From: Acidobacteriota bacterium | GTDB lineage: Bacteria > Acidobacteriota > Thermoanaerobaculia > Multivoradales > J023 | Reading direction: 5' to 3' | Length of the DNA: 32,988 nt | NCBI GenBank assembly: GCA_003697015.1 | Contig: RFGL01000437.1 | Span: 1-32,988, forward strand | Shown: piece by piece, positions 29,377 through 32,988 of the stretch | Layout: each line of letters begins with the position of its first letter | How positions within the stretch are numbered: position 1 is the stretch's first letter | Notes under the pieces: generated by a model | What the model was told of the DNA's origin: nothing | Database searches by the model: none | The model's input: the letters and a program-made list of their open reading frames with translations, nothing else | Made by a program: the position numbers and the translations under genes

Positions 29377-29719
29377 CGCGCGCTCCTTCCCGTGCGCGGC
29401 GATGCTAACCGGATCCGTCCTCCGCGTCCACCCCGGGCGGCCGGCCCGCGCGGGCCGGTCGCAACGGGGGCGCCGGGTGCCGTCCGAGCGGTTTTCGGGA
29501 ACGGCCGCACAAACCCTTGCTTTCTCAAGCTGCCGCAGCGGGCCGAAAGCGGACAACTTTTTTTGTGCGTTCGGTACGACGTTGAATTCGCCGGTCTGGG
29601 TCCGTCCCCCCAAACGACCACGACGAAACGCCGGCGAGCGATGAGCCTGCGGGTCGTCGTGCGGGGGCAGGGACGCGGCCATGGGGGTCGCAGACCCGGG
29701 CCTCCGAGGGAGATGGATC
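29377..29719. other. divergent intergenic region upstream of the sigma module
   Basis: This is a 343-base gap between the minus-strand MDR gene and the plus-strand small frame. I see no gene I can support. The centre (about 29500-29600) is less GC-rich and contains a T7 run at 29560-29566 and a GGACAA/TACGAC pair 18 bases apart, a weak plus-strand promoter candidate. An ATG frame at 29641 exists but has no good initiation signal and reads through the next genes. Confidence 0.55.
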
Positions 29720-29809
29720 ATGTTCACGGACTTTCTGCAAGCGGTATTCACCTGGTGGGACGAGACGGCGCCGGCGAAGGCGCGGGCCGAGCTCGATCCC
29801 AACGGTTGA
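29720..29809 (+). CDS. possible 29-residue small protein upstream of the sigma factor
   Basis: ATG at 29720 to TGA at 29807-29809 encodes 29 residues: MFTDFLQAVFTWWDETAPAK, then an acidic end ELDPNG. The start has a GGGAG Shine-Dalgarno with 7-base spacing. The peptide looks like a short amphipathic helix with a Trp-Trp pair and is not obviously chance GC-coding. It ends 145 bases before the favoured sigma-factor ATG and 11 bases before an alternative GTG, so it would be the first gene of the sigma-TPR unit. I do not recognise it; a role as a small regulator or anti-sigma peptide is speculation. Confidence 0.5.
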   Translation: MFTDFLQAVFTWWDETAPAKARAELDPNG

Positions 29810-29954
29810 GGGGGGCGACGTGTCCGTGCCGGAAACGGCTCGGCGGAGGGCGCGCGGTGCCGGCGCGCCCTCTGCCGCGTCCATGGCGTCCGCCCTCGGC
29901 CCGAAGCTGATAGGCTCCATCGCCGGTCATTCCAAGCCAAGCGGGGACGCGAGG

Positions 29955-30509
29955 ATGCCGAGGAAAACTGCAGATTACGGCACAACAGATTACGGCACGA
30001 CGGGATCCATCGACAAGCTGCTGGTCCGCACCCGTACGGACCTGGGGCGGATCCTGGCGCGCTTTCGGGTACCGCCGGAAGACGCCGACGACCTGGTCCA
30101 GGACGTTCTGGTCCATTACCTGCACAAGCGGCGTCAGGTGCGCGATCCCGAACGCTGGCTCAAGGGGGCGCTGCGCAAGCAGTGCCAGATGTACTGGCGC
30201 AGCCGCCGCCGGCGCATCACCGTCGCCGTCGACGAGACCCTCCTCGAGCTGGTCGCCGAGCGCCGCGGACCCCGGCAAGAGCAACGTTTGTTGCGCCGGA
30301 ACCTGTCGCGGCTGATCGACAGCCTGCAATGGCGCTGTCGCGAGATGTTGCGCCTGCGGTATCATCTGGGTTACGATCGAAAAGAGATCGCGGTGGCGAT
30401 GGGTTATAAGCGATCGAGCATTGACAAAATCGCCCGCCGTTGCCTCGACGCCCTGGCCAGCCGCCTGATCGCCGCCAGCCACGGCCTGCCGACGCGCAAG
30501 GAAAGCTGA
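29955..30509 (+). CDS. ECF-type RNA polymerase sigma factor
   Basis: A 184-residue sigma-70 family member. Region 2 (about 20-86) reads ILARFRVPPEDADDLVQDVLVHYL and LKGALRKQCQMYWRSRRRR, the core-binding and -10 recognition part. Region 4 (about 115-170) reads MLRLRYHLGYDRKEIAVAMGYKRSSIDKIARRCL, a typical helix-turn-helix for -35 recognition. Size and layout fit ECF sigma factors. ATG 29955 has GGGGA 7 bases upstream; a GTG at 29820 would add 45 low-complexity residues. The next gene, a TPR protein, begins 1 base after the stop, so the pair is probably an operon in which the TPR protein modulates the sigma factor. The start region contains a tandem DYGTT repeat. Confidence 0.9.
   Translation: MPRKTADYGTTDYGTTGSIDKLLVRTRTDLGRILARFRVPPEDADDLVQDVLVHYLHKRRQVRDPERWLKGALRKQCQMYWRSRRRRITVAVDETLLELVAERRGPRQEQRLLRRNLSRLIDSLQWRCREMLRLRYHLGYDRKEIAVAMGYKRSSIDKIARRCLDALASRLIAASHGLPTRKES
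29971..30000 (+). repeat. 15-bp tandem repeat inside the sigma-factor gene
   Basis: CAGATTACGGCACAA (29971-29985) is followed by CAGATTACGGCACGA (29986-30000), differing in one base. It encodes a duplicated DYGTT in the N-terminus, is markedly less GC-rich than its surroundings, and could vary in copy number without breaking the frame. Confidence 0.85.
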
Positions 30510-30510
30510 C

Positions 30511-31842
30511 GTGACGAACCCCACCGAGCTCGTCGAGCGTCTCCTCGCCGGCAACGCTTCGCCGGCCGAGAGCCGCGGCGCGGTGCGCGCCCTGCTCCGC
30601 CACCTGCCGCCGGCGGCCGCGGCCGCCGACGCCCCCCCGCTGCCTGACGCCGCGCTCTACGATGCCGCGGTGGAACGGGCGGCGGCGGCCGCCCGCCGGG
30701 TCGAGCAGCAGCTCGCCGGCGAGGAGGCCCGGCTGCCGTCGCGCCTCGCCGAATTGGAGCGGCTGGTGCCGGCCCAGGGCTCGGACGACGGCGACCTGGT
30801 GCGCGTCGAGCAGCGGCTGGCACAGGATGCGCGCTACCACAGCTGGGCCCTGTGCCGGGAGCTGAGCCGCCTGTCGCTCGAAGCGACCTTCGACGACCCG
30901 TGGCGCGCCGTCGTCCTGGCGCGGATGGCGGTGGCGATCGCCGGCGCCCTGACGGCCGGGCCGGAGAGCGACGCCCTGCGCAACGACCTGCGAGCCCTGT
31001 GCTGGGGCCACCTGGGCAACGCCCAGCGGGTGGCCTCCGACCTGCGCGCCGCCGAGCGCGCCCTGGCGACGGCGCAGGAGCTGCTGGCGCGGGGTACCGG
31101 CGATCCTCTCGTCCGCTGCCAGCTGCTCGGTTTCGAGATCTCCCTCAGGAGCGATCAGTCACGATTCGACGAGGCCCTGGCCCTGTGCCGGCGCGCCGTC
31201 CACCTGGCGAGGCGGCTGGGGGACGCCCACCTGGAGGGCCGGCTGCTGAGCCAGCAGGCCACCCTCTACGCCTACCGCGGCGACGCCCACAGGTCGATCG
31301 CCAGCCTCGAACGCGGGGTGGCGCTGATCGACGTCGAGGCCGAGCCGCGCCTGGCGCTGGTGGCGCGGCACAACCTGATCTCCTACCTGAGCGAAGGCGG
31401 CCGCCACCGCGAGGCCTGGGAGCGCCTGCCCGAGACCCGGGCCCTGGCCGAGCAGCTCGGCCATCCTCTCGACCGGGTGCGCCTGCGTTGGCTCGAAGGT
31501 CGCATCGCCCTGCGCCTGGGGCGGGTGGAGGAGGGGCTCGCCGCCCTGCACGAGGCGCGCGACGCCTTCCTCGCCAAGGAGATCGGCTACGCCGCCGCGC
31601 TGATCTCCCTCGAGCTGGCCGTCTTTCACGCCGAGCGCGGCGAACGCGCCCAGGTGCGCCGCCTGGCGGAAGAGATGCTGCCCCTCTTCGCCGCCCGCGA
31701 CGTCCATCGCGAAGCCCAGGCCGCCCTCAAGCTCTTCTGCGACGCCGCCCGGGCCGAGAGAGCCGAGCTCGACCTCGCCCGCGCCGTCCTCGACTATCTC
31801 GAGCGCGCCCGCCGGCACCCCGACCTGCGCTTTCGACCGTAA
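30511..31842 (+). CDS. tetratricopeptide-repeat protein paired with the sigma factor
   Basis: A 443-residue cytoplasmic protein that starts at GTG 30511, 1 base after the sigma stop, with AGGAA 7 bases upstream. Residues about 90-430 form helical repeats with TPR-like pairs, for example LRALCWGHLGNAQRVASDLRAAERALATAQELL, then FDEALALCRRAVHLARRLGD and RLLSQQATLYAYRGDAHRSIASLERG. The N-terminal 60 residues (ELVERLLAG, VRALLRHLPP) resemble the position of the zinc-binding anti-sigma motif in related sigma-TPR pairs, but have no Cys or His pair here, so this may be a zinc-less version. No membrane segment is present. It probably senses or relays a state to the sigma factor; direct evidence is only adjacency and domain type. 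Confidence 0.85.
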   Translation: MTNPTELVERLLAGNASPAESRGAVRALLRHLPPAAAAADAPPLPDAALYDAAVERAAAAARRVEQQLAGEEARLPSRLAELERLVPAQGSDDGDLVRVEQRLAQDARYHSWALCRELSRLSLEATFDDPWRAVVLARMAVAIAGALTAGPESDALRNDLRALCWGHLGNAQRVASDLRAAERALATAQELLARGTGDPLVRCQLLGFEISLRSDQSRFDEALALCRRAVHLARRLGDAHLEGRLLSQQATLYAYRGDAHRSIASLERGVALIDVEAEPRLALVARHNLISYLSEGGRHREAWERLPETRALAEQLGHPLDRVRLRWLEGRIALRLGRVEEGLAALHEARDAFLAKEIGYAAALISLELAVFHAERGERAQVRRLAEEMLPLFAARDVHREAQAALKLFCDAARAERAELDLARAVLDYLERARRHPDLRFRP

Positions 31843-31896
31843 GCTGCGAGCCGCCGAACGCCGACCGCGCGGCGGGGAACCGCCGGGTGGGGGCGA

Positions 31897-31925
31897 TTGA
31901 GCGCGGGCTCCTCGTCTGGTAGGAT
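31897..31925 (+). promoter_or_regulatory. strong candidate promoter of the V4R-like gene
   Basis: TTGAGC (31897-31902), a 17-base spacer and TAGGAT (31920-31925) match a sigma-70-type promoter closely. The predicted transcription start (about 31932) leaves a leader of about 84 bases before the ATG at 32016. It shows that this gene need not depend on the sigma-TPR operon. Confidence 0.55.
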
Positions 31926-32015
31926 GAGAACGGTCTTCCACCAGCGGTCCTGCCGCGCGCTCCGCCGCGCCGTGGGGCGCGCCGTCGCCGAACGGGAGGA
32001 CGGGAGAGAGGCGAA

Positions 32016-32585
32016 ATGAACGACGCGGGCTCCGCCGCCGCGCCCTCGATCAAGGGCATGGGGATCATCATGCTGGTGAAAGCCCTGCGCCACCGCCGGC
32101 AGGAGGCGCGGGAGCTCCTGCCGGCGCGCCTGCACGACTACCTCGATCGTCGCGTCCTGCCGTCTTCCTGGTATCCCGAGGCCGATTACGCCGGTCTGCT
32201 GCGCGCCACCGGCCGGCTCTACGGCTACTCGCGGCCGGAGCACTTTCAGGACCTTGGCGCCGCCCAGGCGCGGCACGACCTCGAGCAGGTCTACCGGGTG
32301 ATGGTTCGGCTCGGCGATCCGGTCGCCACCCTCGAACGGCTGGAGGGCCTGTGGCGGCTGTACCACGACAGCGGACGCCTTCGCGTCGCCCTCGAGGGCG
32401 ACGCGCAGGCGGCGGTGATCATCGAGGACTATCCCCTCGCCCGCCCGGACGTCTGCGGCGTCACCGGCGGCTTCGTCGCCGAGGCCTTGAGCCTGGCCGG
32501 CGCGGTCGACGTCAAGCTCGCCAAGCTGCGCTGCCGGCTGACCGGCCACGACCACTGCCGCTGGCAACTGCGCTGGAGCGACTGA
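32016..32585 (+). CDS. V4R/TIGR02265-like sensory domain protein
   Basis: A 189-residue soluble protein, ATG at 32016 with GAGAGG 4-5 bases upstream. It starts GMGIIMLVKALRHRRQEARELLP and continues LPSSWYPEADYAGLLRATGRLYG, a pattern seen in single-domain proteins of the TIGR02265/DUF2378 group and in heme-NO/V4R-like domains. The end reads KLRCRLTGHDHCRWQLRWSD, with C-x8-C-x-W spacing like the C-terminal V4R motif (Cys...Gly-x-x-x-Cys-x-W). Such domains bind small hydrophobic ligands or metal ions and often regulate neighbouring biosynthesis. It has its own promoter and precedes the fatty acyl-AMP ligase-like gene by 282 bases. Family assignment is moderate. Confidence 0.6.
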   Translation: MNDAGSAAAPSIKGMGIIMLVKALRHRRQEARELLPARLHDYLDRRVLPSSWYPEADYAGLLRATGRLYGYSRPEHFQDLGAAQARHDLEQVYRVMVRLGDPVATLERLEGLWRLYHDSGRLRVALEGDAQAAVIIEDYPLARPDVCGVTGGFVAEALSLAGAVDVKLAKLRCRLTGHDHCRWQLRWSD

Positions 32586-32622
32586 GCCGCCCGCCGGGGG
32601 TAGGAGAACGCGCCCGGCGGCC

Positions 32623-32651
32623 TCGACGCGCGGCGGCCGAAACGGTAGAAT
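32623..32651 (+). promoter_or_regulatory. candidate promoter of the acyl-AMP ligase gene
   Basis: TCGACG (32623-32628; 4 of 6 bases agree with TTGACA), a 17-base spacer, and TAGAAT (32646-32651). The TAGAAT hexamer is nearly identical to the TAGGAT before the V4R-like gene. A leader of about 210 bases would precede the ATG at 32868; I see no known riboswitch in it. Confidence 0.4.
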
Positions 32652-32867
32652 GGGGGCGGTCGACGGGCCTCAGGGGATCCACGGGGGCCTGGGGGGCATC
32701 TCCACCTGCGCTCGAACATCATCGTGCCACACGGATGCTGCTGCGCGGCCGCGTGAGCGTGTCACGCGAGCCTGCCCGGCTGGGCGTCGCGCCGAGACCG
32801 AGACGCTCGCCGTCGGCCTCACGCCGGTACGCGGCGGCTCCTCCGGCCGCCGCCGGGGGAACGCACG

Positions 32868-32988
32868 ATGGCGGAAGACAAGGCAAAGGCGGAGAGCAGC
32901 CTGATCGACGTGCTGTGGCGGCGGGCGTCGTCGCAGGGCGAGGAGGAGGCGTACGTCTTCCTGGCGGATGGGGAGGAGGTTGGGGAGC
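32868..32988 (+). CDS. N-terminus of fatty acyl-AMP ligase-like adenylating enzyme (cut by window end)
   Basis: The frame begins at ATG 32868 with GGGGGA 7 bases upstream and continues past the right edge, giving 40 codons. The text SSLIDVLWRRASSQGEEEAY, then VFLADGEE, matches the very start of fatty acyl-AMP ligases (usual pattern: L-V-D-x-L-x-x-R-A-x-x-x-P-x-x-x-A-Y-x-F-L-x-D-G-E), which activate fatty acids for loading onto polyketide or peptide assembly lines. The family is well known for leading multi-domain PKS/NRPS proteins, so a biosynthetic cluster probably continues to the right. The assignment rests on 40 residues only. Confidence 0.75.
   Translation, partial: MAEDKAKAESSLIDVLWRRASSQGEEEAYVFLADGEEVGE

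Follow-up and report, generated by a model that had tools for sequence, protein, structure and literature searches.

The last 3.3 kb of the stretch of DNA analysed here (contig RFGL01000437.1 of an Acidobacteriota bacterium, 32,988 nucleotides, hereafter the window) contains an open reading frame (ORF) of 29 amino acids (aa), the genes for an extracytoplasmic function (ECF) sigma factor and a tetratricopeptide repeat (TPR) protein, a V4R/DUF2378-like gene and the start of a ligase gene. The first three look like one unit, from which the last two look separate, and a comparison with related loci makes it probable that this unit is a peptide-receptor signalling module resembling the RRNPP systems, but in a diderm phylum and with an (anti-)sigma output. 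Its most informative part is the small frame, which a preliminary description of the locus had left uninterpreted: the short, mostly export-type peptides that are encoded beside TPR proteins in Acidobacteriota apparently constitute a large, undescribed family.

The 29-aa ORF (MFTDFLQAVFTWWDETAPAKARAELDPNG; 29720-29809, plus strand, with its ATG at 29720 and its stop at 29807-29809) is preceded at 7 bases by a putative ribosome-binding site, GAGGGAG (29706-29712, plus strand, read directly from the DNA). It is followed on the same strand by the gene for the sigma factor (184 aa; 29955-30509, with the ATG at 29955 as the likeliest start), which matches Pfam Sigma70_r2 and r4_2 over their cut-offs and scores 52.8 bits to TIGR02937 (cut-off 42.9). 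A gap of one base separates the sigma stop from the GTG start of the TPR gene (30511-31842, plus strand), which encodes a protein of 443 aa that is a candidate peptide receptor and anti-sigma-like regulator. All pieces that the preliminary description had listed were recovered at their positions on the plus strand, including the one-base spacing between the sigma and TPR genes.

Upstream of related TPR genes, short ORFs on the same strand carry, mostly near their C-terminus, the motif G-x-x-[MIL]-D-P-[ND]-G. A strict search pattern, i.e. a C-terminal [hydrophobic]-[DS]-P-[DN]-G without the upstream glycine as a requirement, recovered a motif ORF in 28 of the 65 loci of the discovery set, as compared to 0/65 on the antisense strand, 1/55 downstream and 8/1300 shuffled sequences; the hits were divided over loci with an adjacent sigma gene (13/32, the window among them) and loci without one (15/33). 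With the pattern fixed beforehand, the held-out loci yielded 23/43, versus 1/43 antisense, 0/37 downstream and 14/860 shuffles, and near-variants such as GSGIDPHG and GPGLDPMG were present in 10 of the 20 misses. The held-out set consisted of 40 newly fetched regions in which every locus was sigma-less, and the test therefore supports the pairing of peptide and TPR protein, not the sigma loci. In the combined set, window included, a motif ORF is located upstream in 50 of 98 TPR loci (0/98 antisense, 1/89 downstream, 10/1960 shuffles); here, and in the counts of export-like starts and promoters below, loci with a TPR score weaker than E 1e-95 or with fewer than 500 bases upstream were left out. 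The glycine three residues before the hydrophobic position is found in 86 of 102 motif copies, though it is absent from the search pattern. Among 70 ORFs that were collected with a looser pattern, and that therefore probably include a few chance ORFs, the last motif ends at most 4 residues from the C-terminus in 48, 2-4 motif copies occur in 19 and a tryptophan occurs in 63. A looser motif, [DSNE]PxG, proved too frequent for use (68/98, versus 16/98 antisense, 14/89 downstream and 356/1960 shuffles).

These ORFs behave as coding sequences. The ribosome-site word AAGGAG is present in 33 of the 70 stretches around their starts, where 7.2 were expected, and a ribosome site combined with a basic, hydrophobic N-terminus (an export-like start, as judged by a hydrophobicity rule) was recorded in 68 of 98 loci, versus 0/98 antisense and 4/89 downstream. 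The strict motif is found in 47 of these 68 loci, where the motif ORFs with a start site measure 37-117 aa, about half of them 100 aa or less. The proportion of nonsynonymous differences (pN) is below that of synonymous ones (pS) in five of six pairs of peptide genes (e.g. 0.24 versus 0.62 and 0.23 versus 0.55), and even in the sixth, of 27 codons. In a search from the side of the motif, four TPR-rich genomes (25.6 Mb in total) contained 125 copies of the codon pattern for [IM]DP[ND]G and five genomes that lack the family (26.1 Mb) contained 39, while a control with scrambled order occurs 9 times in the same four TPR-rich genomes. In 30 loci fetched via the motif, 11 sites were located in long ORFs and 13 short ORFs carried the rest; nine of these short ORFs lie beside a TPR gene (six on the same strand, three convergent) and for four no TPR gene was found. 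One locus (L257:2968-3556) encodes a secreted precursor with nine copies of HGPR[IV]DPNG, convergent to a TPR gene. Differently built motif repeats, LNGGxxDPNG, are present at L258:2494-2953 and L260:2783-3044, with no adjacent TPR gene found. Finally, at ten loci of distant TPR homologues, or of the AraC-type and other homologues in the window's own genome, two short ORFs fit the pattern, one antisense to the TPR gene (L223) and one of 25 aa (CSPDG) ahead of a sigma gene (L225); neither has other features of the family, and the peptide therefore goes with the nearer clade of TPR proteins.

With respect to the TPR protein, single TPR models match the window protein weakly, but TPR_12 was recovered in 47 of the 49 aligned relatives (49 of 102 TPR proteins entered the Pfam scan) and structure prediction gave an all-helical repeat in the form of a TPR superhelix (mean pLDDT, the predicted local distance difference test, 86.3). 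The bacterial proteins listed among its structural matches include RapI (Z 20.6), Rap with CSF (Z 20.2) and NprR (Z 19.7). Two asparagines are strongly conserved in the 49-row alignment, N170 (92%) and N288 (86%), and these would presumably suit a ladder along a peptide backbone, such as occurs in the structures of kinesin light chain and RRNPP proteins. At the level of sequence, a profile search of the PDB returned the peptide-binding TPRs of Pins/LGN and kinesin light chain, and no RRNPP chain among the matches listed (60 of 81). The N-terminus is of a different nature: an H..CxxC pattern is present in 68 of 102 TPR proteins, Pfam zf-HC2 matches 8 of the 49 relatives, and the four ligand columns of the alignment hold histidine in 84% and 92% and cysteine in 90% and 90% of the rows. 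The window gene has the adjoining sigma gene of a zf-HC2 protein and lacks the H-H-C-C residues, as in the part that matches the H..HL..CxxC domain of the relatives (30511-30618, plus strand) all four ligand positions are lost, the columns being occupied by T2, A27, L32 and A35. The preliminary description had already noted the missing cysteines and histidines; its suggestion that control is unlike that by a simple zinc anti-sigma factor is probably right, and the sigma and TPR genes do constitute a unit.

The TPR protein has matches in 35 of 59 near genomes, the window's own included, many of which hold several and up to at least 29, and a profile of 25 rows found it in 39 of 72 genomes of the order; copy numbers reach about 30 in some genomes, and genome G011 has at least 26 TPR places. 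Outside the order it was found in 6 of 247 genomes of the phylum, all of the same class, in a thin draw with six candidates scored per genome. Nine of ten named loci belong to Acidobacteriota (Thermoanaerobaculia, Thermoanaerobaculum, Holophagales, Acidobacteria) and one to Deltaproteobacteria, no relative was found on viral contigs, and the matches in the window's own genome outside the window are more distant or partial. The sigma factor has homologues in 29 of the 59 genomes (own included) at 1-7 per genome, and many TPR genes are therefore without a neighbouring sigma gene of this family, namely 66 of the 98 TPR loci.

The same pairing of peptide and TPR domain is connected to various outputs: a sigma factor plus a zf-HC2-like domain, a zf-HC2-like domain alone, or an XRE-type helix-turn-helix (HTH) domain. 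The latter domain scores over the Pfam cut-off in the TPR proteins of L259 and L262 (both TPR genes), which are convergent to motif peptides, the textbook layout of RRNPP systems. Since the peptides also adjoin XRE-HTH TPR proteins, the peptide is tied to the TPR domain and the output domain is what varies. Over a tree of 120 TPR domains, 11 changes of the sigma neighbourhood were counted (at least four of these forced by starred branches), and the XRE and AraC types are each confined to one side of a single branch. Several variants were observed besides. Beside XRE-TPR genes the cores are flanked by cysteines (GC-x-[MI]DP[ND]G-x-C, e.g. GCGMDPNGRC), and GCxIDPNGxC cores are found in L259, L262, L263 and L264, of which the first two have the XRE-HTH TPR genes; such cores might form a disulfide ring. 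An AraC-type HTH is fused to the TPR domain, with no motif peptides, in L035, L217 (contig C242 of the window's own genome), L031 and L034; HTH_18 was tested in L031 and the other three were read by eye. Tandem arrays of three family sigma genes plus two or three TPR genes are present in L041 and L043 (G011:C4 and G032:C937). In L214, L218, L221, L223 and L225, more distant TPR proteins from the class, also zf-HC2-like, adjoin family sigma genes, mostly with no motif peptide.

Splitting of the loci by sigma presence brought out a promoter-like element of two boxes, TGTC-N19-GCA[AC][CT] (in its promoter form TTGTCCCG-N-GCAACT), which is located upstream in 12 of 32 sigma loci, versus 1/32 antisense and 0/27 downstream. 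The spacing peaks at 19, all other spacings from 8 to 31 giving 0-2. Scored with a leave-one-out matrix, 13/32 sigma loci exceed the 99% line of the shuffles (3/32 antisense, 0/27 downstream) and, with the same matrix, so do 19/66 loci without sigma (0/66 antisense, 1/62 downstream), where the site is often located in the gap from the peptide gene to the TPR gene. The matches at sigma-less loci suggest that the family sigma may drive those units in trans. Counts of k-mers around the starts of the peptide genes gave only ribosome-site words and no shared promoter. Genome-wide, TTGTCMC-N16/17-GCAMY has 50 matches in six genomes, whereas the reversed control has 16; only three of the 30 matches examined are at TPR units. 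Sites ahead of genes that look exported by eye (L269, L270, L275, L285, L290 and L294) possibly belong to a wider regulon.

Starting from the conservation of a peptide ORF next to the TPR gene, its coding constraint, the motif repeats, the alternative outputs and the two-box element, we infer the export, processing and re-import of the peptide, its binding, the binding of sigma and the direction of the switch. In this model the small gene would encode a short peptide, in most members of the family a Sec-type precursor with one to several cores of the GxxhDP[ND]G type, which would be exported, cut and returned to the cytoplasm, where the TPR protein would act as its receptor. The N-terminal domain of that receptor, presumably derived from a zinc anti-sigma domain, would hold or free the ECF sigma factor, and the peptide in the TPR groove would switch this hold. 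In many units, though not visibly in that of the window, the freed sigma factor could transcribe the unit itself and so create positive feedback.

Members of the RRNPP (or RRNPPA) group are Rap, NprR, PlcR, PrgX, Rgg/ComR and AimR. Signalling of the RRNPP type has been described in Gram-positive Bacillota and in their mobile elements, and its signature, derived from a survey of Firmicutes and viruses, is a small propeptide (10-100 aa), export by Sec (or PptAB), adjacency, and a TPR receptor of 250-500 aa (PMC10075063). A small precursor gene, in most cases with a predicted Sec-type product, accompanies a TPR protein of 250-500 aa here as well, and the window propeptide (29 aa) and receptor (443 aa) are both within the published limits (PMC10075063). 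The receptor is located directly beside the propeptide in many sigma-less loci, whereas the window has the sigma gene between the two. Other likenesses are the tandem cores in some precursors, the XRE-HTH-TPR versions with a convergent peptide, and the TPR fold like that of Rap and NprR. The differences are that the present system resides in Acidobacteriota and not in Bacillota, that its principal output domain is of the zf-HC2 (anti-sigma-like) kind, whether or not an ECF sigma gene adjoins it, and that it has a conserved GxxhDP[ND]G core, next to the missing RRNPP sequence match among the PDB matches listed. As to copy number, AloR-AloP of Paenibacillus reaches more than 25 peptide-receptor pairs per genome (PMC7425212), comparable to the TPR places of G011, but AloR is an HTH-TPR protein of a Gram-positive, whereas most TPR proteins here have a zinc-finger-like N-terminus. 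On the side of the sigma factors, ECF270 is an Acidobacteria group with soluble zinc anti-sigma (ZAS) proteins, and ECF sigma factors with a TPR extension have been described (PMC8999054). As in the ZAS-type arrangement, a sigma gene is followed here by that of a soluble protein with a zf-HC2-like N-terminus, but the regulator has a long array of TPRs, there is a peptide gene ahead of the unit, and the window copy has lost all four ligands. In the ECF42 type, where the TPR is a C-terminal extension of the sigma factor itself, sigma and TPR likewise work together, but the TPR of the present system is a separate protein.

Several results weigh against the proposed peptide-receptor module. The strict motif ORF is missing from 48 of the 98 loci and, among the sigma-containing loci that resemble the window, it is present in 13 of 32 only, the window being one of them. 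The best structural matches of the TPR protein are the eukaryotic LGN/Pins (Z up to 24.0), so that a pheromone receptor cannot be recognised from the fold by itself; LGN is in its turn a TPR protein that binds peptides. The window has no match to the two-box promoter (best score -1.6, versus a 99% line of 9.5), and its same-genus relative likewise stays below the line with this matrix. The window peptide fails the hydrophobicity rule, i.e. it has no classical signal peptide; short hydrophobic peptides that are exported by other routes are known, and it may be exported differently or act inside the cell. The oligopeptide-binding protein SBP_bac_5, which is expected for re-import, is not enriched with TPR copies: it occurs in 70 of 71 genomes but is scarce in TPR-rich ones, with none detected in G032, two in G011, one each in G012, G020 and G027 and, as the exception, six in G013, and with 0-2 in eight of the nine f6-f8 genomes versus 5-9 in genus g7, which is without the TPR family. 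Lastly, the similarities of peptides and TPR proteins are only weakly correlated (Spearman 0.20; 7/500 permutations).

The re-import data and the two-box sites ahead of exported-looking genes (e.g. L275, L285, L290 and L294) would fit a reading in which the secreted small protein is an output, namely a surface or envelope peptide, that is regulated by the neighbouring TPR/sigma pair in response to something else. We consider this rather unlikely, though the strongest of the alternatives, as the peptide accompanies the TPR domain whether the output is sigma, zf-HC2-like or XRE HTH, and as repeats of a C-terminal core are typical of pheromone precursors, tandem pheromone copies being known from RRNPP precursors (PMC11343458). 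The repeated cores, the leader-like N-terminus and the cysteine-flanked cores beside XRE-TPR genes could also be those of ribosomally synthesized and post-translationally modified peptides or of bacteriocins, with the TPR protein as regulator or immunity partner, but no modification enzyme, protease or exporter recurs in 74 downstream neighbours (among the best 25 of 89 families), which makes this quite improbable. There is a slightly smaller chance still that the family is real elsewhere and the window's 29-aa frame a chance ORF: it is short, has no signal peptide and is without the usual glycine three residues before the hydrophobic one. It does carry the C-terminal [hydrophobic]-D-P-N-G of the family, a motif ORF at this place is expected by chance in about 0.5% of cases (10/1960 shuffles), it has a ribosome site, and a same-genus counterpart (L006), 41% identical, occupies the same place and ends in AELSPNG, where the window peptide ends in AELDPNG.

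The genes to the right of the unit have a bearing on the preliminary description, which had inferred from the sigma, TPR and V4R-like genes a unit that regulates a lipopeptide or polyketide cluster further to the right. The V4R/DUF2378-like protein (189 aa; 32016-32585, plus strand) matches DUF2378 at E 0.0011 and V4R at E 0.0027, neither of which reaches the Pfam cut-off. Its homologues occur in 13 of 59 genomes, own included, and none of their places outside the window is beside a listed sigma or TPR place, the nearest being 19 kb from an AraC-type TPR gene (G005); the gene was therefore rejected as a member of the unit. The ligase gene (ATG at 32868; 32868-32988, plus strand) is cut by the end of the contig at base 32988, where the right flank therefore becomes unreadable. 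Its 40 N-terminal residues are about 48% identical to the starts of annotated AMP-binding/fatty acyl-AMP ligases (best E 0.04) and gave no Pfam and no PDB match. Ahead of the V4R-like gene, TAGGAT follows TTGAGC at 17 bases (31897-31925, plus strand, a predicted sigma-70-like promoter outside the module), and TAGAAT follows TCGACG (32623) at the same distance; by the consensus of such promoters, both are taken to be housekeeping sigma-70 promoters, and they are unlike the two-box element of the sigma-TPR units. The word GGTAGRATG has only two exact copies in the window (31918-31926 and 32644-32652), and these are ahead of the V4R and ligase genes. Constant linkage to polyketide synthase or non-ribosomal peptide synthetase genes, the mark of a cluster-specific biosynthetic regulator, was not found: the genes 3' of the relatives' TPR genes belong to many unrelated families, the commonest, 2-oxoacid dehydrogenase, accounting for only 4 of the 74 neighbours scanned (out of 93 called genes, 19 of which were left out). 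Although an acyl-AMP ligase does start at the contig end, a cluster regulator is thus highly improbable, because in relatives the unit adjoins unrelated genes, a result that the preliminary description itself had named as counter-evidence, the V4R homologues are located elsewhere, and the ligase and V4R genes have sigma-70-like promoters of their own.

A literature search at the level of titles and listings, with most subscription journals outside its coverage, found no description of a system like the proposed module in Acidobacteriota; relative to the RRNPP systems, the phylum, the core motif and the sigma/anti-sigma output would be new. We tentatively extend the module to a wider scheme, in which a Thermoanaerobaculia-type genome may hold up to about 30 parallel peptide channels, built from secreted-precursor GxxhDP[ND]G octapeptides, cytoplasmic TPR receptors that swap outputs (anti-sigma, XRE HTH), few ECF sigma factors that also act in trans, and a shared TTGTCC-N18/19-GCAACT promoter. 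Acidobacteriota are abundant in soil. If the proposed reading is true, a TPR regulator would pass a peptide signal on to an ECF sigma factor, and the Acidobacteriota would have a communication system based on a peptide code, with a core that can be recognised, numerous receptors in each genome and output domains that can be exchanged, i.e. an RRNPP-like quorum-sensing world outside Bacillota that is wired through sigma factors.

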